A stretch of 64,000 nt of DNA from Candidatus Lindowbacteria bacterium RIFCSPLOWO2_12_FULL_62_27 (GTDB lineage Bacteria; Lindowbacteria; 2-12-FULL-62-27). The position numbers and the translations under genes are program-made. Positions 5,158 to 47,884 of this stretch are shown one piece after another; within the stretch, counting starts at the first letter, position 1; every line of letters begins with the position of its first letter. A model generated the notes under the pieces. That model saw only the letters and a list, made by a program, of their open reading frames with translations, had not been told where the DNA came from and did no database searches. The stretch covers positions 186,001 to 250,000 of the forward strand of contig MFPR01000020.1 in assembly GCA_001784175.1 (NCBI GenBank), in the 5' to 3' direction.

Positions 5158-5927
5158 GTATCCCCCTCTCCCGCCTTTGGCGGGAGAGGGTTGGGGTGAG
5201 GGTGGCCGTCCCGAAGCCGTTCGGACACCAGCAGCAGTCGAAAGGGCCACCGCCAGGGAGCGGTGGCGATGTAGGGATAGCCGCCTTTCGCGAGGATCCC
5301 TCGCATTTCGCCCAACGTGTAGGCGCGCCGGAAGGACAGCGGCGCGTCGTTTCGAAACAGGAGGCTTGGTGGCGCCAGCCTCCGGGCCACCACTTTACAC
5401 ATCCAGTAGAACAGCGCCGTTCGGCGAAGGTCGGTGAGAATCACGCCCACCCGAGCCAGCCGGTACGCCTTCCATAAGAAAAACGAAATCTGCTCGCTCG
5501 ATAGATGATGAAGAAGCAGCGATGCGATCACAAAATCAAAACTGCCGTCCGAAAACTTCGATTCGAAAAAATCCGAGTGGACAATGTCGATCTCCGGATA
5601 TCCCGAGATCCGCTCCCGCGCCAGCCGGACGGCGTGCGGATGCGAATCGATCCCGATCAGGCGCATCCCCCAGCCCCGCCGGCGCGACAGCCTGGCCAGC
5701 GTCTCGTCGATGTCCCCGCCGCCGCAGCCGACGTCCAGCACCGTGAAGGAGGACAGGCCGCGGACGCGCACCATCTCCTCCAGCGCTCGAACCACGGTCG
5801 ACGCGCCGCCCAGCCGGTGATTGGTCCACTCGACCGCACGAAACGCGCTCGCGTATTCATCGTAGGGAATAAGTTCGGCGGGCGCGTCGATCTGCTCCCG
5901 CTGGTGTTGTTCCCGTTTAAGCCACAT
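5154..5927 (-). CDS. SAM-dependent methyltransferase partnered with a ketosynthase
   Basis: 257 residues, class I methyltransferase. The SAM motif is VLDVGCGGGDIDETLA (about 65-80), followed by LIGIDSHPHAV (motif II) and FDFVIASLLLHHL (motif IV). The pattern with an N-terminal TNHRLGG resembles methyltransferases found beside polyketide or fatty acyl synthase genes. The ATG at 5927 is chosen because it overlaps the ketosynthase stop by 11 bp; longer versions are antisense readings. The last 18 residues (HPHPNPLPPKAGEG and neighbours) come from a genomic palindromic repeat that has been read through, so the ancestral stop was probably earlier. Confidence 0.8.
   Translation of the reverse strand: MWLKREQHQREQIDAPAELIPYDEYASAFRAVEWTNHRLGGASTVVRALEEMVRVRGLSSFTVLDVGCGGGDIDETLARLSRRRGWGMRLIGIDSHPHAVRLARERISGYPEIDIVHSDFFESKFSDGSFDFVIASLLLHHLSSEQISFFLWKAYRLARVGVILTDLRRTALFYWMCKVVARRLAPPSLLFRNDAPLSFRRAYTLGEMRGILAKGGYPYIATAPWRWPFRLLLVSERLRDGHPHPNPLPPKAGEGDT
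5164..5206 (-). repeat. GC-rich palindromic repeat, copy A
   Basis: A perfect 12 bp inverted repeat CCCTCTCCCGCC with a 3 nt loop, followed by TTGGGGTGAGGGTGGC. It lies between the converging htpX and methyltransferase stops and could act as a two-way terminator. It also encodes the methyltransferase C-terminus. Confidence 0.85.
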
Positions 5928-7191
5928 GGCGGCTGACAATGAGCGCGGCGTTCTTGGATCCGAAGGCCAGCGTGTTGACCAGGGCGGCATCGCACCGCCA
6001 CTTGCGCGCGCGGTTCGGCACGTAATCGAGATCGCACGCAGGGTCAGGCTCGTCCAGATTGACGGTGGGCGACACCACACCGTCGGTGATCGGCAAAAGC
6101 GCCGCCGCCAGGCCCGCCGCGCCGCTCGCGCCCTGCGGATGGCCGATCATCGACTTGACGGAACTGCACGGGATGCGGCGGCCGGCCGGCCCGAAGGCGG
6201 CTTTGACGGCTTCCGTCTCGATCGCGTCGTTCATCCGCGTCGAGGTTCCATGCACCTGGATGTGGCCGATGTCCGCCAACGTGAGGTTCGCGTCCTCCAC
6301 CGCCAGCCGCATCGCCCGCGCGCTTTCGGCCGGGTCCTTCAGTTTGACACGGTGATGGGCCTCGCAAGTCGCGCCGTAGCCGCGAATCTCTCCATATATT
6401 CTTGCGTCCCGCCCGAGGGCGAGATCCGCCCGCTCCAGCACAAACATCCACGCGCCCTCTCCCAGCACAAATCCGTCCCGCGCGGCGTCGAAGGGCCGCG
6501 ACGCGCGCGCCGGGTCATCGTTCCATCGCGCCGCCAACACGCGCATCATGTCGAACCCGGCCATGATGCCCGGCGTGATCGTCGCGTCCACCCCGCCCGT
6601 CAGCACGCGGTCCAGCCGGCCCGACCGGATGTGGTGCAGGGCGTACCCGATGGCGTCGCTCGAACTGGTGCACCCGTCCGAGATGACGTGGGAAAGTCCG
6701 CGCAAGCCAAAATGGATCGATATCTCGCTTCCCAGCGTGCCGGTCGTTGAACTGGAGATGTTGTACACGGAAAGACGCGCGCTGTCTTCGCGATGGCCAT
6801 GGTGTCCGTTGCCGAAATATATCTCGTATTGCCGTTCCGAAAAATCGATCGGCCCCCCGCCGCTGCCGATGCACACGCCGAACCGCCGCCGATCCTCGTC
6901 CGTGAGCCGCTCCGCCGCAAGACCCGCATCCGACATCGCCTCCCCGCTGGCCGCCAGCGCCATCGGCACGGCCCGGCTGATATGCCGCAGGTCCCGGTCG
7001 CCGGCCGGTAGATGGGCCGCCGCGTCAAATTCCAGCGCCTGCCCCGCGATCCGGGTCTTCAGCCGCCCGGGATCGAAAAGCTCTATCCTCCGAACCCCGC
7101 TCCGCCCCTCCACGAGCGCCCGCCGAAACGCCGGCCACCCCTGAGCGTTCGGCGATACCACACCGACCCCGGTGATCACCGCTTGATCCAC
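5917..7191 (-). CDS. Beta-ketoacyl-ACP synthase (KAS II/FabF-like)
   Basis: 424 residues. Condenses acyl thioesters with malonyl-ACP. The catalytic triad is visible: Cys in DGCTSSSDA (about 165), His in VHGTSTRMND (about 305) and His in SMIGHPQGA (about 340). Length is typical of FabF-type condensing enzymes. The GTG at 7191 is chosen because VDQAVITGVGVVSP is the usual family N-terminus and a TACCGT -10 box lies 6 bp upstream. An ATG at 7245 is in frame, and the frame stays open through a GACA repeat to 7329. No acyl carrier protein or FabG is adjacent. With the overlapping methyltransferase gene it looks like a small specialised lipid or polyketide pair rather than housekeeping fatty acid synthesis. 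Confidence 0.85.
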   Translation of the reverse strand: MDQAVITGVGVVSPNAQGWPAFRRALVEGRSGVRRIELFDPGRLKTRIAGQALEFDAAAHLPAGDRDLRHISRAVPMALAASGEAMSDAGLAAERLTDEDRRRFGVCIGSGGGPIDFSERQYEIYFGNGHHGHREDSARLSVYNISSSTTGTLGSEISIHFGLRGLSHVISDGCTSSSDAIGYALHHIRSGRLDRVLTGGVDATITPGIMAGFDMMRVLAARWNDDPARASRPFDAARDGFVLGEGAWMFVLERADLALGRDARIYGEIRGYGATCEAHHRVKLKDPAESARAMRLAVEDANLTLADIGHIQVHGTSTRMNDAIETEAVKAAFGPAGRRIPCSSVKSMIGHPQGASGAAGLAAALLPITDGVVSPTVNLDEPDPACDLDYVPNRARKWRCDAALVNTLAFGSKNAALIVSRHVA

Positions 7192-7226: not shown

Positions 7227-7257
7227 CGTTCCCCCTCACCCACATCAAAAAAAAGCC

Positions 7258-7294
7258 TTGACAGACAGACAGACAGACAGACAGACAGTATAGT
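7258..7294 (+). promoter_or_regulatory. Promoter-like element with a GACA repeat as spacer
   Basis: A perfect TTGACA (7258-7263) and a TATAGT (7289-7294) are separated by 25 bp made entirely of GACA units. Removing two units would bring the spacer to 17 bp, the sigma70 optimum. A weaker CAGACA inside the tract is already at 17 bp. This is the arrangement of slipped-strand phase-variable promoters, driving the secreted-protein pair downstream. Confidence 0.55.
7260..7288. repeat. Tetranucleotide repeat (GACA) x7.25
   Basis: Seven complete GACA units plus a G, 29 bp, uninterrupted. It lies between divergent genes and also inside the open frame upstream of the ketosynthase start, where it would read as CLSV repeats if translation began at 7329. 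Confidence 0.95.
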
Positions 7295-7298
7295 ATGC

Positions 7299-9182
7299 GT
7301 GAAACGCGGATGGCGTTGGCGGGCGGCAAGGACGACGGTGTGGATCATGGGCGGCGTAGTGGGCGCCGTTATTATGTCGGAGGCGAATCTGTCCATGCAC
7401 GGGATAGATGACTCGATTGCCCGGGCGGCGCACCGGCATGGCGGACAGGGTGATATACCGGATACGGGCGTCTGTGACGAGGGAAACGATGCGGCGATCG
7501 AGCACACGGACGAACTTCTCGAACTTGGAAGTCCTATTTTGCTGGAAGGAGACTGGAATGTGGTCGAACCAACGGGTGGCGGATTCGTAGGCCAGGTGCG
7601 CGTCACGCCCGGGCTGGGAGATTACACGTTCCCGGTGACTGCGCACTTTGGAACCTGTGTGAATAAGTTCCAGATTGTGGGGATCGAAAATGGTGAGAAG
7701 TTCGTCATAACGGGTCCTTGTTCGCCCGTGGTGGATTCGCCGGTGACGTATGTCATGAAGCTGGTGGACCCCAAGACAGGGGATCCGGAGGAACCGGACC
7801 TGGCTGCCAGTCCGATCGAAAACATCATGGCGGGGGAGTTCCGTATCCGTGAGATCGCGGCAGGAACAGCGTTTGCCGCCATCAAGCTTCACGGGTTTAA
7901 CGGCGGCATTCCGCTGAGTGGTGTTGTGAAGTCGACCGAGTGGGGGTTTACCAACAGTCTGACGTTTGAATTCACGCAGGACGGCGCCCACGAACTTGAG
8001 ATGGTCTGGGAAGTGCCGGCGCCGCCGAACGGAAAATCTCGGACGATCGTCAGTTCCGCATTCAAACGCGTGCTTGTTGTGCCGGCGGGGTCGAAGTTCA
8101 CTGTTACCGACTGCCGCGCGGATTCGTCGGCTACCTGTGTGACTCGGACGGACAGCCCGGGATCATTTACGATTATGGGCCGGCAGGAAGCACGGCCACG
8201 AATGGATCCGACCCCGACCGCGTCGGAGCCGGAAGCCGAAGTCGAGATAACAGTGAAGCATCCGGGATTGAGCAACTTCAAGATCGGATTCCTCGCGGAA
8301 CGGGAGGCGGGCAGCGGGGGGCATGAGGCGGCCGTCCACCAGAATGTGGCGGGATCGGGGCCGTCGAATTTGACTGACGGCCAATGGGCCACGCATCCGC
8401 ATATCCCGATCGGCTTCCACAAGGACGGCGCGTTCCATGACGCGTCGGCCGGTGAGGTCAAGGGCGTGTACAAGGTGACGGCCTTCGGCGGCCGGGAGCG
8501 GGTGCGGATATTTGTGCTACCGAGCGGCGAAAGGTTTCGGACAATCCGGCCGAACGGCAGCATCGAGTTCGACGCCGAAATGGGCGGCCTCACCCACGAT
8601 GAGCAACAGCAGCAATTGAAACTGGTCGTGGGGTCGGGACGCTTTGCCGGATGCCACCTCGGAACCATTGAGATCGACGTCAAGGTCAAAGACGAGTTCG
8701 GCAACGATTTGGAGGCGTTGGGCCAAAGGATGACGGATGAGGGCATAACGAATATCACCCTTGTGGGTGGAACTTGTGAACATCACGGACCACGAAACGA
8801 CAACTTATTACAAAATTGCCGTACTCCGGACAACAATCACTTCGGGCGAATAAATCTAAACGACAGTATTATTGATGTCGCATCCGAGTTTGAAGCGTGG
8901 ACCGGGGATAATCTCCTGGTCAATGATATGAGCTTGGGGGAAGATGGCGAAGGGTATGGAGGTCGATTTGACCTCGACGGAGAATGGGAGGCATCGACCA
9001 GCCACGACCCCGAATACGGTCACTCCAATGGTAGCGCGGCCGATTTGGATGCGTCTAATGTCGACGATATAGTTGATGTACTCACAGACGTGCCTTTCAA
9101 TTATGCCGAGATATCGACAAGCGATCCTTTTACTCCAAACGCTTTCATCGACGAAGTCACTCACATCCACCTGATGAAATGA
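7299..9182 (+). CDS. Large secreted protein of unknown function
   Basis: Up to 627 residues. From the GTG at 7299 the N-terminus looks like a signal peptide: a basic KRGWRWRAAR then WIMGGVVGAVIM, with cleavage near SEA. That GTG is only 4 bp from the TATAGT box; an alternative GTG at 7338 has AAGGA five bases upstream but would lose the basic region. The mature part is beta-rich, His/Glu/Asp-rich in places (GDIPDTGVCDEGNDAAIEH) and has several Cys. I recognise no family. It is followed with an ATGA overlap by a second secreted protein, so the two are translationally coupled and probably act together outside the cytoplasm. Confidence 0.65.
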   Translation: MKRGWRWRAARTTVWIMGGVVGAVIMSEANLSMHGIDDSIARAAHRHGGQGDIPDTGVCDEGNDAAIEHTDELLELGSPILLEGDWNVVEPTGGGFVGQVRVTPGLGDYTFPVTAHFGTCVNKFQIVGIENGEKFVITGPCSPVVDSPVTYVMKLVDPKTGDPEEPDLAASPIENIMAGEFRIREIAAGTAFAAIKLHGFNGGIPLSGVVKSTEWGFTNSLTFEFTQDGAHELEMVWEVPAPPNGKSRTIVSSAFKRVLVVPAGSKFTVTDCRADSSATCVTRTDSPGSFTIMGRQEARPRMDPTPTASEPEAEVEITVKHPGLSNFKIGFLAEREAGSGGHEAAVHQNVAGSGPSNLTDGQWATHPHIPIGFHKDGAFHDASAGEVKGVYKVTAFGGRERVRIFVLPSGERFRTIRPNGSIEFDAEMGGLTHDEQQQQLKLVVGSGRFAGCHLGTIEIDVKVKDEFGNDLEALGQRMTDEGITNITLVGGTCEHHGPRNDNLLQNCRTPDNNHFGRINLNDSIIDVASEFEAWTGDNLLVNDMSLGEDGEGYGGRFDLDGEWEASTSHDPEYGHSNGSAADLDASNVDDIVDVLTDVPFNYAEISTSDPFTPNAFIDEVTHIHLMK

Positions 9183-10315
9183 AAACTTTCAAACGAAATC
9201 TGGCCGTCACAATTATTTTGATCTGCGGTGCAGTGGGTGTGTCCGTTGCGGAATTGGTAGAACCCGGAACGATCTGGCCTCGGAAGAACGATTTTTCAGC
9301 CACGGTGGAGGTGAGTGTATTTAGGCATACCGCCGGATATGATTTTGTCTATACCGTGGGCAATGCCTCAACAAGCCGTCAATCCATTGCGCGATTTGTG
9401 ATCATGCACTTCGATCCCACCATGTCATTAGATGAGGGTGTTTCCCAGCTATATGGTTATGTTCGGGGTGTATCCCTGGGAGAACCTGGGTATCGTGGAG
9501 GTTGGGCGGGCAGAAATGCCAAGGGCAGAGGACTAATCACTTGTTCCTGGAGTGTTCGTTCCGATCCGGGGTGGGGCAAATTAGATTCTCGTTCCAAAAT
9601 GCCAAGTAAAGTTATTAAACCAGGCCAATCGGAAAATGGGTTCAAGCTTTTCAACCGTCGGGGTCCGCCAAAAATTGCACGTTATTTTCTTGAAGGGTGG
9701 GCGCCCCGTCCTGTTTTAGATGGAGGAAAAATTGTCATAGAGGATCAAAGTGGGCCTTTGCCAGTAACTCAAGTAATAGACAATGCTGGACAATTTGGCG
9801 ATTCCGTTCTGAAGGGTGTTTTACCGAATCAAAAAGCCAGCGAGAACAGTGTTGGTGGAAAAACATTAGGCCCTGCTGTTCCTCCCACTGAACAAGTGGT
9901 TATCTGCGACACGTTCATCCTCGACCTGATCGGCCAATTGCGCGAGGCGGTGGCGTTGGGCTGGATCAAGCACGACCTGCGGAAGGACCAGGACGACGAT
10001 GAGGATCACGGCAAGCGGAAGGGCGACGACAAGGGCAAGAAGAAAGGCCACGAGAAGGACGGCGACGAAGGCGACGACAACGGGGACGATGACGACCTAT
10101 CCGCCGCGGACAAGCAGTTGCCCGGCGTTGCGAAGGCGCTCATCAAGAAATTGACGAAGGCGCGGCGGGAGTGCCTGCGCGGTCGGTTTGGCGAGGCGCG
10201 GGAGATGCTGCGGGCGCTTCTCAAGCAGGTGAACGCGCAGAGAGGCAAGCATCTGACAGACGAGGCGTATTATCTGATCCGGTTCAACGCCGAGTTTCTA
10301 GTGGAAAAACTCTGA
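9179..10315 (+). CDS. Secreted protein with a C-terminal FIMAH-like helical domain
   Basis: 378 residues. A clean signal peptide (MKTFKRNLAVTIILICGAVGVSVAE) precedes a beta-rich domain of about 200 residues that I do not recognise. The C-terminal 120 residues have helices LDLIGQLREAVALGWI and ALIKKLTKARRECLRGRFGE, then LLKQVNAQRGKHLTDEAYYL. This resembles the FIMAH domain found at the ends of many secreted bacterial proteins. Unusually, a highly charged Lys/Asp/Glu/Gly linker of about 50 residues is inserted between helices one and two. The start overlaps the previous stop (ATGA). Base composition drops in the middle (9.3-9.9 kb) and rises again in the C-terminal domain, which suggests a composite gene. 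Confidence 0.65.
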   Translation: MKTFKRNLAVTIILICGAVGVSVAELVEPGTIWPRKNDFSATVEVSVFRHTAGYDFVYTVGNASTSRQSIARFVIMHFDPTMSLDEGVSQLYGYVRGVSLGEPGYRGGWAGRNAKGRGLITCSWSVRSDPGWGKLDSRSKMPSKVIKPGQSENGFKLFNRRGPPKIARYFLEGWAPRPVLDGGKIVIEDQSGPLPVTQVIDNAGQFGDSVLKGVLPNQKASENSVGGKTLGPAVPPTEQVVICDTFILDLIGQLREAVALGWIKHDLRKDQDDDEDHGKRKGDDKGKKKGHEKDGDEGDDNGDDDDLSAADKQLPGVAKALIKKLTKARRECLRGRFGEAREMLRALLKQVNAQRGKHLTDEAYYLIRFNAEFLVEKL

Positions 10316-11007: not shown

Positions 11008-12504
11008 TCAACCGTAGCCCAGGCTGACCAGTTTCTGAGGCCGTAAAGGGCATCGTCCCTCCAGAATTCGAAGTGCCTTCTTGGCGTTGAGCATGAAAAA
11101 GGTCAGGAAGGCGTGAACTGCCATTCGCCACCGTCCTCGATACCGGGCTGTTGAAAAATCGTGCCATTTCTTCGCCTTGCCGTAGATCCGCTCCACCGTC
11201 GTCCGAAATCGAAACAGGGCTTTCTGCAAATCCGGCGATAGAGGACTTTCCAATCTGAGTTGCCGATCCAATGACATAAGCACCCGCGCGCGTCCGTCAC
11301 GCGCCGAGAAACTTGGACACCCGGATGCGCCGGGGCATCCGCCACAATCCCGAACCGAAAAATAAAACAGCTTCCCTTCCGGATGCGGACTTTGTCCGAT
11401 CGCCGTCTTCCCTTCCGGGCACCGCAAGCTTTGGGTCGATGGATCATACTGGAATGCCTCCGCCTGAACCGTCACGTCGTGGGCCGGAATCACCTCCTGC
11501 ATCCCCAACTCTTTTCGAATCTCCTCCCGGTTCTCTCCGCTCCCGTACAACTTGTCCGCCAATGCCACATCGCCGCTCAAACCCCGTTCTTCCTCCTGCG
11601 CCAGCAACCTCGGCAGGTCCTGACCCTCATTCACATTCCCCGGCATCGTTTCCACCGTCGTCACGATCTCCGACTCGTTCGTCACCGTGTGCACCTTATA
11701 TCCATAAAACGGCTTGTCTTTTGACTTGTAACCAAATGCCGCATCCACGTCCGTCAGACTCCCCACCGACCGATCCGTCAAAAACAACAGCTCTTCGATC
11801 CCTTTCGACAACTCGACCACCGCCTCCGAAAATCGTTCGCCTTGCGCCTTCGCCAGCATCTCTCTCAGTCGCCCGATCTCTTCGGCCAGCACAGTCGGAT
11901 TCTCCTCTTCCTCCTGATCCATCCTCCTCGACCCTTCCCGCTTTTGTTCCTCCGTCAACAACTCCTCGTAGAATTCCCTGTTGTCCCGCCTCATCGCCGC
12001 ACGAAGTTTCCCCTGGGCCTGCCTCACGATCCCCAACCTCGACCGAGCTCGCGCGTTCGCCAACACATGCGTCGCGTCCACGATCTTCAACCGATGTGAG
12101 ATCAATCCCGCTTTCTCCAACTCCTCCACAAATCTCTCGAACAGCCGCCGAAATCCTTCCTCTCCCAATCGCCCTCGAAATACGCTCAGCGTCGAATAAT
12201 CCGGCACCGTCTCCTCCAGCGGCAATCCCGCAAAATATCGATACAGCGCGTTGTATCTCAGTTGTTCCTCCACCTCGTGATCCGACAGATTCGCGTAGAT
12301 TTCCAAAAATAGCGTCAGAAATATCGTCCTCGGCGGATACGGTGGCCGGCCTACGGCCGATGCTGAGTAGTACCTCTCCAACTCGCGGTCGATCCACGAA
12401 AAATCAAATTTCTCCTTGATCCGTACCAGTTCGTGATTTTTTGGAATCAGATTGCCCCACAACAGATCGAAAAAACTATTCTGCGGTTGCTTCTCTTTGA
12501 CCAT
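11008..12504 (-). CDS. IS1182-family transposase
   Basis: 498 residues. The N-terminal DUF772-type domain (PYPPRTIFLTLFLEIYANLS, about 55-75) precedes the DDE catalytic core. The first Asp is in LKIVDATHV (about 165), the second in DVALADKLYG (about 315) and the Glu in FRTTVERIYGKAKKW (about 445). A charged coiled region lies between the first and second Asp, as in IS1182 and relatives. A GGGAGGGG Shine-Dalgarno precedes the ATG. No frameshift or stop is seen, so it may be active. Confidence 0.92.
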   Translation of the reverse strand: MVKEKQPQNSFFDLLWGNLIPKNHELVRIKEKFDFSWIDRELERYYSASAVGRPPYPPRTIFLTLFLEIYANLSDHEVEEQLRYNALYRYFAGLPLEETVPDYSTLSVFRGRLGEEGFRRLFERFVEELEKAGLISHRLKIVDATHVLANARARSRLGIVRQAQGKLRAAMRRDNREFYEELLTEEQKREGSRRMDQEEEENPTVLAEEIGRLREMLAKAQGERFSEAVVELSKGIEELLFLTDRSVGSLTDVDAAFGYKSKDKPFYGYKVHTVTNESEIVTTVETMPGNVNEGQDLPRLLAQEEERGLSGDVALADKLYGSGENREEIRKELGMQEVIPAHDVTVQAEAFQYDPSTQSLRCPEGKTAIGQSPHPEGKLFYFSVRDCGGCPGASGCPSFSARDGRARVLMSLDRQLRLESPLSPDLQKALFRFRTTVERIYGKAKKWHDFSTARYRGRWRMAVHAFLTFFMLNAKKALRILEGRCPLRPQKLVSLGYG

Positions 12505-28780: not shown

Positions 28781-29743
28781 TTACAGTCGGCTTTCAATGA
28801 CTCCTTTTCGAACGACCCCCAAAATCCTGTCTACATCTTCCTTTGAATGAATCTGAATTTCAATTGTCCCTCTGTACTGTTCATCCCTCTTCCTCAATTT
28901 TACTTTTACACCGGTTCCAAGGTGCCTGCAGAATTCCTGCTCCAGTTTCTCCCATTCATTCACGGCCGCAATATCATTCTTGCCATTCCCGGATGTCTCG
29001 GCGTTCATACGCCTTGCTTCTTCCTCAGATTTTCTGACTGACCACGAAAACTCAACAATTTTAGAGGCTAATTCTGCCCGGCGATTCTCATTCTGGACTG
29101 ATAGTATTGCTTTCGCATGCCCAAATTCAATCTTACCGTCCAATAAATACTTCTGAATATCCTCTGAAAGAGACAGTAATCTGAGTAGATTTGATATTGT
29201 TGATCTATCTTTCGATAACTTGTCCGCGATCTCATCCTGTGTCAAATTGAATTTGACCTGCAGAGCCCGAATTGCCTTCGCTATCTCTACAGCATTCAGG
29301 TCCTCGCGTTCAATATTCTCAATTATAGCAGCTTCCAGCATTGATTTATCATCATAATTTTTTATAATGACAGGGATTGAGTCTATATTTGCCATTTTAC
29401 AGGCCTGCCATCGTCTTTCACCAGATACAATCTCGTATCTGCCTGCATTTCTCCTAACAATAATAGGCTGAATGAGACCGTTTTTACGTATTGTTTCTGA
29501 TAGCTCCTTAAGCTTATCCTCATTAAATCTTATTCTTGGCTGATATGGATTCGGTGTTAGAGAGTCTGTCGGCTGATATGTCAGATACTCACCGACTTTA
29601 TTTCCATTATTAGTTATTTCAGTTGCTAATTGACTCACTAACGATGTCTGTAATGATTCCTCTATCGGCGTTATCTGCTCCCGCTGTGGATTCTCCATTG
29701 GAATTAACGCTGACAGGCCCCGGCCCAATACTGCTTTCTTCAT
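28781..29743 (-). CDS. parB: Chromosome partitioning protein ParB
   Basis: 320 residues. Starts MKKAVLGRGLSALIP, the classic ParB N-terminal ParA-contact motif. The CTPase/ParB-Srx domain has NPYQPR (about 68) and IVSGERRWQA (GERR, about 107-115). The helix-turn-helix LTQDEIADKLSKDRSTISNL (about 172-192) reads parS. The C-terminal dimerisation domain is present. The coding sequence is strikingly AT-rich compared with neighbours. Its first 41 codons overlap the end of parA in another frame. A parS-like palindrome lies 1.1 kb away. Confidence 0.95.
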   Translation of the reverse strand: MKKAVLGRGLSALIPMENPQREQITPIEESLQTSLVSQLATEITNNGNKVGEYLTYQPTDSLTPNPYQPRIRFNEDKLKELSETIRKNGLIQPIIVRRNAGRYEIVSGERRWQACKMANIDSIPVIIKNYDDKSMLEAAIIENIEREDLNAVEIAKAIRALQVKFNLTQDEIADKLSKDRSTISNLLRLLSLSEDIQKYLLDGKIEFGHAKAILSVQNENRRAELASKIVEFSWSVRKSEEEARRMNAETSGNGKNDIAAVNEWEKLEQEFCRHLGTGVKVKLRKRDEQYRGTIEIQIHSKEDVDRILGVVRKGVIESRL

Positions 29744-30593
29744 AGTCCCCCCTTATTGTTACATTTTCTATGTCAGCTTTTTCAATTGTGGCTGACGTTT
29801 CTTCATTGTTGATCTCTATTCCATATAATAGTTCCCTTGCCAGATCCTTGATCGCATGGGCGCCCTTTGACTCCGGCGCATATTGCTGAATCGGCTTTCC
29901 GAATGACGGCGCCTCTGCAAGGCGAATGTTTCTTGGAATAATTGTTTCGAGTACTTTTCCATTGAAGTGGCTCTTGATCTCCGACACAACAGCCTCCGTG
30001 AGTCTCATCCGGAAATCCACCATGCTGAGGACAACGCCAAGAATCTCGAGGCTGGGATTCGCAAAATTTTTGATCGATTCATAAACCTTGATGAGCTGTG
30101 TGATCCCTTCCAGCGCGAAGAACTCGCATTGCATCGGAATAAGGATCTGGTCGGCCGCGACAAAGGCGTTCACGGTCAGAAGTCCCAGGGAAGGCGGCGT
30201 GTCCATGAGAATGAAATCGTACTGGTCCCGCACAGGATCGATCGCCTTCTTGAGAAGGAACTCCCTGAAATCCATTCCGGCGATCTCGATGGCGGCGCCG
30301 GCCAGATTCATGTTCGCGGGGAGAACGGACAGGTTCTCATAGGAAGTCGTGGCCCGGGCCTGGTCCAACGGCAATGCCCGGATCAAAACATCATAGGCCG
30401 TCCTCTCCGCATTCTTGGCAACCCCCAGTCCGCTCGTCGAGTTCCCCTGGGGATCCAGATCGATCAGGAGAACTTTCTTGCCTTCCTCCGCCAGTGATAC
30501 CGAGAGATTGATCGACAAGGTTGTCTTGCCTACTCCGCCTTTTTGATTCGCTACCGCAATGACCTTCTTCACATCCAGTTTTCTTCTGTCCAT
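29619..30593 (-). CDS. parA: Chromosome partitioning ATPase ParA with extended C-terminus
   Basis: 324 residues. The deviant Walker A NQKGGVGKTTLSINL (about 16-30), LLIDLDPQGNSTSGLG and FILMDTPPSLGLLT are typical of Soj/ParA. Family members end near LARELLYG (about 260); here some 65 extra, low-complexity residues follow (Glu/Ser/Asn/Gly-rich). The last 41 codons lie in the parB start region, a 125 bp overlap in different frames. A GGGGGAG Shine-Dalgarno precedes the ATG. Base composition changes from GC-rich to AT-rich at the extension. Confidence 0.95.
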   Translation of the reverse strand: MDRRKLDVKKVIAVANQKGGVGKTTLSINLSVSLAEEGKKVLLIDLDPQGNSTSGLGVAKNAERTAYDVLIRALPLDQARATTSYENLSVLPANMNLAGAAIEIAGMDFREFLLKKAIDPVRDQYDFILMDTPPSLGLLTVNAFVAADQILIPMQCEFFALEGITQLIKVYESIKNFANPSLEILGVVLSMVDFRMRLTEAVVSEIKSHFNGKVLETIIPRNIRLAEAPSFGKPIQQYAPESKGAHAIKDLARELLYGIEINNEETSATIEKADIENVTIRGDYEESSIGPGPVSVNSNGESTAGADNADRGIITDIVSESISN

Positions 30594-30677
30594 ACTTCTC
30601 CCCCCTTTCCCTTACTTACATACCTCATCGACATCCGCAGCGGTGACCTTGAATGCTCGTAACTGTTCAGGTGTTCC

Positions 30678-30720
30678 CCCTCTCCAGCCTCTGGCGGGAG
30701 AGGGTTGGGGTGAGGGTGGC
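30678..30720 (+). repeat. GC-rich palindromic repeat, copy C
   Basis: Same family as copies A and B with a few stem changes; lies in the 230 bp parA-rsmG gap. Confidence 0.8.
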
Positions 30721-30746
30721 AGGCTGCGGTCGTCGCTGTCTGTACC

Positions 30747-30792
30747 CCCCTCACCTCAATCCTCTCTCGCCCCTCGCGGGGGGAGAGGAGGT
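30747..30792 (-). repeat. GC-rich palindromic repeat, copy D (inverted relative to C)
   Basis: CCCCTCGCGGGG core with flanking CCTCTCTC and GGAGAGGAGG. It lies 26 bp from copy C in the opposite direction, a paired arrangement typical of REP-like elements. Confidence 0.75.
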
Positions 30793-30805
30793 GAATAGTT
30801 ACGAA

Positions 30806-30821
30806 TGTTCCACGTGGAACA
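30806..30821. promoter_or_regulatory. parS site
   Basis: TGTTCCACGTGGAACA, a perfect 16 bp palindrome that fits the bacterial parS form TGTTnCACGTGnAACA. It lies next to the rsmG stop and 213 bp upstream of parA; ParB is expected to load here. Confidence 0.88.
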
Positions 30822-30823
30822 CG

Positions 30824-31492
30824 TCAGTTCAATTTCAAATGGAAGACGAACAGTGGATCCCTTCTGTCTTCGTATCCAGGGATGGGAATGCTGTCGATCA
30901 GGTCACACCCTTGGCCTGCAAGATCATTCTTCGAACCAAAATAAATAATGTCCGTTCCACGTGGAAACTTTTTCATTAATAGGCCATAAATATTCACAAG
31001 TTTTATACCCCTTATCAACAATTCCTCAACACAATCCAGGTCTTTAGTGCTGATATCCTCCAATCCACATGGTATTATTTTTACATTTTTTATGCTTAAT
31101 TTATTGACTACCTCATGTAAAAATGCAATTTTTTTATTATTTCTCTCACATAGTACTATTGATATACTATTTCTGACTAGTTTAATGGTTATACCGCAGA
31201 TACCAGCACCTGAACCAACATCTAATAAGCACTTTTTATCTATTAATTGTGTTGCAATAATTGATGGCACAAGAAGTTTATTATATATATCTGAATAATC
31301 AAGCTTACCTACAATGTTTATCTTAGATTTATACTCATTAATAATGTCTATATATCTTCCAAGTATTTCTATTATTTTCTTGTCCACGACGTAACCGGGC
31401 GATGTAAAGGGGTTAACCCCCCTCTTTCCCTCCTTTAAAGGGGGGGATAAGGGGGGGTCCAACTTCTGTTCACCAGTGGAATTGCTCTTCAT
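30824..31492 (-). CDS. rsmG: 16S rRNA m7G methyltransferase RsmG (divergent)
   Basis: 222 residues. LLDVGSGAGICGITIKLV (about 88-105) and ERNNKKIAFLHEVVNKL match the RsmG/GidB SAM-binding core. The later part is less conserved than usual. Residues 12-28 (DPPLSPPLKEGKRGV) are encoded by a palindromic repeat. That they are translated is supported by a promoter whose -10 lies 8 bp before the ATG at 31492. A GTG further in could start a shorter form. The gene is very AT-rich for this genome. parA-parB-rsmG clustering is typical of origin-proximal DNA. Confidence 0.85.
   Translation of the reverse strand: MKSNSTGEQKLDPPLSPPLKEGKRGVNPFTSPGYVVDKKIIEILGRYIDIINEYKSKINIVGKLDYSDIYNKLLVPSIIATQLIDKKCLLDVGSGAGICGITIKLVRNSISIVLCERNNKKIAFLHEVVNKLSIKNVKIIPCGLEDISTKDLDCVEELLIRGIKLVNIYGLLMKKFPRGTDIIYFGSKNDLAGQGCDLIDSIPIPGYEDRRDPLFVFHLKLN
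30953..30968. promoter_or_regulatory. Second, degenerate parS-like site inside rsmG
   Basis: CGTTCCACGTGGAAAC keeps the 13 bp core of the nearby parS but differs at three outer positions. It is in rsmG coding sequence, 131 bp from the perfect site. Confidence 0.6.
31417..31460 (+). repeat. GC-rich palindromic repeat, copy G (CCTCCTTTAAAGGGGG type)
   Basis: CCCTCCTTTAAAGGGGGGG with flanking C and G runs. It is translated as DPPLSPPLKEGKRG at the RsmG N-terminus. Confidence 0.75.
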
Positions 31493-46996: not shown

Positions 46997-47884
46997 CGGT
47001 GCCGTGAAGCGTAATTCGGCGACGCGGGGGAGACCCGCGAGGTCCGGATGGAGGGCGGCCAGACGAAGCGGCGAATTCTCCAACAATCCGCCGGACTCCA
47101 GTGCCGCCGCGATCCGAGGGGACACTTCCAGGAACAACGCGCCGTCCGGCCGAATGTGGCGGGCGGCGGACCTGAAAATCCTACGATAAACCGTGAGGCC
47201 GTCCCCTTCGTCGGTCAGGGCCAATCTTGGCTCGAAGCGGCGGATGGCGGGCGGCAGGGCTTCAAATTCCTCCAAGGACAAATACGGCGGATTGGATACG
47301 ATCAGATCGAATCTGAGATCGGACGGAAACGGGAATAGGTTTCTGTGCAGGATGCGGACGCGGCCGAGAAGACCGAGGGCCGCGACGTTTTTCACGGCGA
47401 TTCGCGCCGCCGGCCCGGAGATTTCCGTCGCCGTGATCGAACACTCAGGGCGGGCGCGGGCCAGGGCCGCCGCGATGCATCCGGAGCCGGCGCCGATCTC
47501 ACACACTTGGATTTTAGATTTTAGATTTTTGATTTTAGATTGATGCGCAATCCATCGTGACGCCTGCTCGACCAGGTGTTCTGTTTCCGGTCTTGGGATC
47601 AGGACATGCTCGTCCACATAGAACGGGAGTGAAAAAAATTCCTTTTTGTTCAAGAGGTACGCGACCGGTTTGTGTCCCGCTCTCTGGCGGACCCGTTCGC
47701 GGAACGCCGAAATCTCGATGTCGGTGAGGCGGCGTTCCCTGCCGGCGAGGAGGCGTTCGCGGGGGAGGTCGAGCGTATGGGCGAGGATGAGTTCGGCGTC
47801 GAGGCGAGCGGTGTCGATACCGCGTTTTTTGAAGAAGTCCTCCGTGGTCGAGAGGATGGCACCGACGTTCCAGGATTCTTTCAA
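46970..47884 (-). CDS. prmC: Release factor glutamine methyltransferase PrmC
   Basis: 304 residues. Methylates the Gln of the GGQ motif of release factors. VCEIGAGSGCIAAALA is the SAM site (about 125), FDLIVSNPPYLS the catalytic NPPY (about 192). The N-terminal helical domain (ARLDAELILAHTLDLPRERL) is intact. A TTG at 47884, 7 bp after AGGA, is taken as the start; a TTG at 47890 overlaps the prfA stop. Two oddities: residues about 112-122 (SKIKNLKSKIQ) come from an AT-rich simple repeat inserted before the SAM motif, and the last 11 residues come from the MITE-like insertion. Confidence 0.88.
   Translation of the reverse strand: MKESWNVGAILSTTEDFFKKRGIDTARLDAELILAHTLDLPRERLLAGRERRLTDIEISAFRERVRQRAGHKPVAYLLNKKEFFSLPFYVDEHVLIPRPETEHLVEQASRWIAHQSKIKNLKSKIQVCEIGAGSGCIAAALARARPECSITATEISGPAARIAVKNVAALGLLGRVRILHRNLFPFPSDLRFDLIVSNPPYLSLEEFEALPPAIRRFEPRLALTDEGDGLTVYRRIFRSAARHIRPDGALFLEVSPRIAAALESGGLLENSPLRLAALHPDLAGLPRVAELRFTAPARHQTVSC
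47514..47545. repeat. AT-rich simple repeat inside prmC
   Basis: Alternating AAAATCTAAAATC-type units, about 32 bp, in frame within GC-rich prmC. Confidence 0.75.

Follow-up and report, generated by a model that had tools for sequence, protein, structure and literature searches.

The closest described relatives of the locus reported here are promoters whose output depends on a simple repeat. In Haemophilus influenzae, hifA and hifB carry TA repeats in their overlapping divergent promoters, and the length of the spacer has been demonstrated to control fimbriae. Our locus resembles this system in having a repeat in the promoter between divergent genes, with control by spacer length predicted, but differs from it in its 4-bp rather than 2-bp unit, in having no fimbrial genes, and in a divergent gene that encodes a ketosynthase-like enzyme and for which nothing points to joint control. 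The Neisseria genes porA, fetA and opc are controlled by a homopolymer between the -35 and -10 boxes, as summarised in PMC2791445. They share with our locus a simple repeat that fills the spacer, a repeat length that alters sigma-factor spacing, and exported products. They differ from it in that our repeat is a tetranucleotide starting from the -35 box and thus moving in 4-bp steps (with poly-T or poly-A in relatives), our genes have short leaders and belong to an uncultivated lineage, and switching is here predicted from sequence. The TAAA repeat of Neisseria meningitidis nadA is also a tetranucleotide promoter repeat with stepwise expression (a property only predicted for our locus), but it lies at a distance from the core promoter and acts together with NadR and IHF, whereas our repeat lies within the core promoter spacer (PMC2791445). 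In Helicobacter pylori, T and A tracts near promoters tune adhesins, with 9 of the 25 listed loci having the tract between -35 and -10 (PMC4081817). Our case is similar to sabA and other loci of that species in having T/A tracts at the promoters of exported proteins, several per genome and some within the spacer; the sabA tract, however, precedes the -35 box and serves as a rheostat, while the tracts described here are inside the spacer, immediately after TTGACA (PMC4081817).

Here, we propose that a GACA array in the window (the whole stretch of 64,000 nucleotides that was analysed) forms the spacer, variable in length, of a phase-variable promoter of the sigma-70 type, and that this promoter drives an operon of two genes for secreted proteins (7299-10315). 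We derive this reading from sequence comparison and assign it a probability of roughly 0.75. The mechanism is already known; the novelty, as far as our searches go, lies in the type of repeat, in its derivation from the -35 box, in the lineage, and in the dedication to a single exported family. The papers that we found on repeat-based promoter switching concern host-associated bacteria, and the present case comes from a GC-rich uncultivated lineage and spans three genera.

A GACA array between two promoter boxes

The array and its promoter boxes all lie on the forward strand. The -35 box (TTGACA, 7258-7263) is a perfect consensus whose last four bases are the first unit of a perfect tandem array of 7.25 GACA units (7260-7288), which therefore begins within the box. 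The spacer of 25 nt (7264-7288) consists of GACA units only, (GACA)6 followed by G, and leads to the -10 box TATAGT (7289-7294), which matches the consensus at 5 of 6 positions and recurs as a hexamer in other predicted promoters of the genome. The earlier note had described exactly this arrangement, and its arithmetic is also correct, since losing two 4-bp units leaves a spacer of 17 bp. A weaker alternative -35 box, CAGACA (4/6, 7266-7271), is found 17 bp from TATAGT and, as every register ends in GACA, a box of this type persists while enough units remain. Just upstream of the -35 box is an A8 tract (7247-7254), a possible UP-like element to which only a putative function can be given.

That a 25-bp spacer would be a poor one is suggested by the promoters of the same genome, for which we used 850 kb of stretches together with pattern searches of the whole genome. 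Among exact TTGACA boxes followed by a -10 box with at least 5 of 6 matches in these 850 kb, 13 of the 19 with a spacer of 8-31 bp have one of 16-18 bp. With this optimum, the present spacer is predicted to be weak and a 17-bp spacer strong, and the optimum can be reached by whole units (25 minus 8 being 17).

The weakest point of the promoter anatomy is the distance of 4 nt between TATAGT and the GTG start codon at 7299, on account of which a transcript from this promoter may start inside or after that codon. Many predicted promoters of the genome, like most of those in the family described below, have the start codon 6-10 nt past the -10 box and are leaderless or have very short leaders. Presumably, the in-frame GTG at 7338, which stands 5 nt after an SD-like AAGGA (7328-7332), could act as a fallback start, though the signal peptide translated from it would lack a basic N-terminus.

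The array stands out from its genome. The pattern TTGACA-N25-TATAGT is found once in the window and in none of 100 shuffles; GACAGACAGACAGACA occurs at a single place in the entire 4.39 Mb genome; and the window array is the only one of at least 4 GACA units in these 4.39 Mb. At 29 nt, it is also the longest tetranucleotide tract in the 850 kb scanned, the next being 15 nt. A chance repeat is ruled out by this uniqueness, by the shuffles and by the background tract lengths. The rarity of such tracts, which the earlier note had pointed to, holds in our sample, where (GACA)5 is present in 2 of 59 other genomes.

Downstream of the array is a gene for a secreted protein of 627 amino acids (7299-9182, forward strand, GTG start), with a signal-peptide-like N-terminus and a C-terminal HxxGxAxD...HxH motif. 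It overlaps by 4 nt with a gene for a second secreted protein of 378 amino acids (9179-10315, forward strand), which ends in a FIMAH domain, and the two likely form an operon. No Pfam family was found for the 627-amino acid protein, and among its homologues one touched Peptidase_M74 (E 0.097) and one TDH (E 0.05), neither match being significant. The AlphaFold models of the two proteins are weak (mean pLDDT of 52 and 60, respectively) and fold searches with them returned only generic beta-sandwich matches, and so we claim no function for either. Relatives of the 378-amino acid protein were sought in viral contigs and none were found. The comparison with fimbriae or adhesins of pathogens that the earlier note had drawn is not borne out: no such domain was found in the downstream proteins, and a link to a pathogen has no support either. 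Just 3' of the operon is an IS-type transposase (DUF772/DDE, 11008-12504). Further along the window, ParB-, ParA- and RsmG-like genes, recognised by eye, cluster in a low-GC stretch (28781-31492), with the minimum of the cumulative GC skew at ~30-32 kb; this stretch probably marks the origin of replication, at ~23 kb from the array.

Repeat spacers across the protein family

The 627-amino acid protein belongs to a small, lineage-restricted family of secreted proteins that is present in all three genomes of our phylum sample, namely the window's own (G000) and two from other genera of the same taxonomic family (G001 and G002). A profile of the protein identified ten loci in these genomes, nine of them with an assembled 5' end, and a FIMAH-type partner gene comes next after most of the ten. 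Identity between the window protein and the homologues aligned with it is 24-34%.

In seven of the nine genes whose 5' end is assembled, TTGACA is followed by a simple repeat in the spacer before a -10-like box: GACA at the window locus and poly-T (9-13) in the six others, where TTGACA is at the equivalent position. The window promoter can be written as TTGACA-(GACA)6G-TATAGT-4-GTG, and that of its relative in the same genome (contig C6) as TTGACA-AG-T12-CCTTGA-TATAAG-10-ATG. In G001, the promoters are TTGACA-T12-CATCTGG-TACCGT-7-GTG (C307), TTGACA-T10-CCATCTGG-TATCGT-7-GTG (C151) and TTGACA-T13-CATCTGG-TATTGT-7-ATG (C11), and in G002 they are TTGACA-CCCG-T12-GA-TAGGGT-6-ATG (C86) and TTGACA-CCCG-T9-GA-TAGGGT-6-ATG (C126). 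The -10 boxes of the homologues are our own assignment and some are weak (TACCGT, TAGGGT). The arrangement is absent from two members of the family, both in G000 (C6:246887 and C40:79775).

Tract length varies between related copies with poly-T spacers. The C307 and C151 copies of G001 are 95% identical over 359 nt from TTGACA on, yet one has T12 and the other T10C, and in G002 the flanks CCCG-Tn-GATAGGGTAC are kept between C86 and C126 with T12 in one and T9 in the other. Hence the tract changes in length while the flanking promoter bases stay, with the proviso that homopolymer lengths in assemblies may contain small errors, to which the GACA count is less prone. With repeat spacers in 7 of 9 family genes and paralogues that differ in tract length, comparison of related genomes gives strong, if indirect, support to the phase-variable promoter put forward in the earlier note, as a predicted switch.

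The combination is also specific. In the three phylum genomes, TTGACA-N0-8-T8 occurs at six sites, all six of them in front of family genes, and TTGACA-N0-8-T11 is absent from all 57 control genomes outside the phylum (G003-G059). There are 19 A/T homopolymers of at least 10 nt in the three genomes, of which 7 have TTGACA no more than 12 nt upstream; under independence this association has a probability of ~1e-12, a value that is too small, given the dependence between paralogues of one genome. All five homopolymers of at least 12 nt are in TTGACA spacers. Several of the remaining A/T tracts are preceded by hairpins or by a tRNA gene and resemble terminators. A general promoter habit of the genome is ruled out as the source of the pattern, since other good promoters lack homopolymer spacers and TTGACA with T8 is confined to the family. 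Allowing for paralogy, repeat-spacer promoters still amount to no fewer than four to five separate cases, made up of the locus in the window, the C6 gene of G000, one group each in G001 and G002 and, also in G001, an unrelated gene with kelch repeats. The promoter of the last of these (C222; L155 1501-1520) reads TTGACA-AAATC-A14-TAGAGT; its gene, one of two in tandem, codes for a secreted protein, and the A14 spacer is a candidate second switch outside the family.

Other explanations for the array

Tetranucleotide tracts usually switch genes by translational frame shift, for example in Haemophilus, and the array could act in this way if an upstream start, such as the TTG of TTGACA, read through the tract so that unit changes shifted the frame. 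Besides fitting that usual mode, this reading gains from the gene's frame being open for ~41 codons upstream, through the array (668 versus 627 amino acids), and from TTG ACA being in frame with the gene in some homologues. We nevertheless regard it as quite unlikely: in the present state there is no in-frame ATG, GTG or TTG upstream of 7299, which leaves the repeat outside the 5' coding sequence, with no usable start ahead of it; the TTG has no SD; in both G002 homologues, reading from TTG in the ATG frame meets a TGA directly behind the poly-T; and what is constant across the family is TTGACA and a -10-like box, not a reading frame. A coding role for the gene on the other side is extremely improbable. 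The divergent ketosynthase-like gene (5917-7191, reverse strand, GTG at 7191) would have to own the array as an N-terminal extension (CLSVCLSVC) and be the gene that it switches. The minus-strand frame is indeed open through the array from a TTG at 7329, and there is a coding array of this kind in an unrelated genome (G035), where ~8 TGTC units (L213:1494-2018) encode the hydrophobic stretch (LSVCLSVC) of a signal peptide, the array itself being a possible translational switch. Against this, most of the 20 listed ketosynthase homologues have their first usable start within ~5 codons of GTG 7191, that is, ~70 nt beyond the array, and there is no homologous extension. These start positions place the array outside the coding sequence, in the intergenic region, and lead us to reject a coding repeat of the ketosynthase.

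A promoter role would not by itself imply switching. The A/T tracts or GACA arrays might be static elements, acting through DNA bending or as the binding site of a regulator, an explanation favoured by the spacing of 15-20 bp to the -10-like box in most homologues and by the capacity of poly-T tracts to set promoter strength via DNA shape (PMC4081817). We consider it unlikely, because homopolymer spacers are absent from other strong promoters of the genome, because GACA and poly-T have little shape or sequence in common but share repetitiveness, and because tract lengths differ between paralogues. It is very unlikely that the array is a neutral expansion by slippage beside a chance or decayed promoter, with the real promoter elsewhere. 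The array does begin at the GACA of TTGACA, from where it could grow by slippage alone, and the start codon is unusually near to TATAGT; but the array is unique in the genome and sits exactly where the homologues have repeats of their own.

The predicted switch and other repeat tracts

How might a phase-variable GACA spacer work? Slipped-strand replication would add or remove GACA units and, with any unit lost, TTGACA would be rebuilt and shifted by 4 bp relative to TATAGT; the box would stay intact through slippage because the GACA unit is its own 3' end (TT-GACA). The predicted states are thus 7.25 units with a 25-bp spacer (weak), 6.25 with 21 bp, 5.25 with 17 bp (strong), and 4.25 with 13 bp. 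Some expression probably persists in the low state, because of the weak CAGACA at 17 bp in the present array. The sister genes, with poly-T or poly-A spacers, would move in 1-bp steps; the poly-T relatives would step around 17 bp and may act more like a dimmer. Slippage in living populations, its effect on transcription, and a bet-hedging benefit for surface or exported proteins are parts of this scheme that we infer.

A broader reading, to which we would give even chances, is that repeat-spacer switches occur throughout this sparsely sampled phylum, almost all of them on this one family of exported-protein pairs, and that one member replaced its homopolymer with a tetranucleotide taken from its own -35 box, thereby acquiring a self-preserving repeat with 4-bp moves and a sharper on/off response than a homopolymer would give. 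The architecture has been kept before one exported family despite 24-34% protein identity, in genomes that are otherwise almost free of such tracts, and this would mark the family as one subject to random variation by the cells, phages, predators and competitors being examples of what such variation might counter. In addition, TTGACA with a simple repeat provides a simple search signature for contingency genes in uncultivated bacteria.

Other tracts in these genomes were noted in passing. In G000, an A11/T11 tract (C4:131585-131610; L165) separates two divergently oriented genes whose products are exported; it is flanked by TTGACA at one end and by TTGCAT at the opposite end, and the -10 boxes are indistinct. 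Each of the three phylum genomes has a long G run (G000 C29:2480-2493, 14 nt; G001 C72:1604-1622, 19 nt; G002 C30:8818-8853, 36 nt), which could reflect either errors of assembly or additional switches. Lastly, 7-bp tandem arrays (GATTTTA, AATCCAA, GATTTTG) recur at dispersed places in the genome, at 47510-47541 of the window and at L028:670, L032:14755 and L199:2268.
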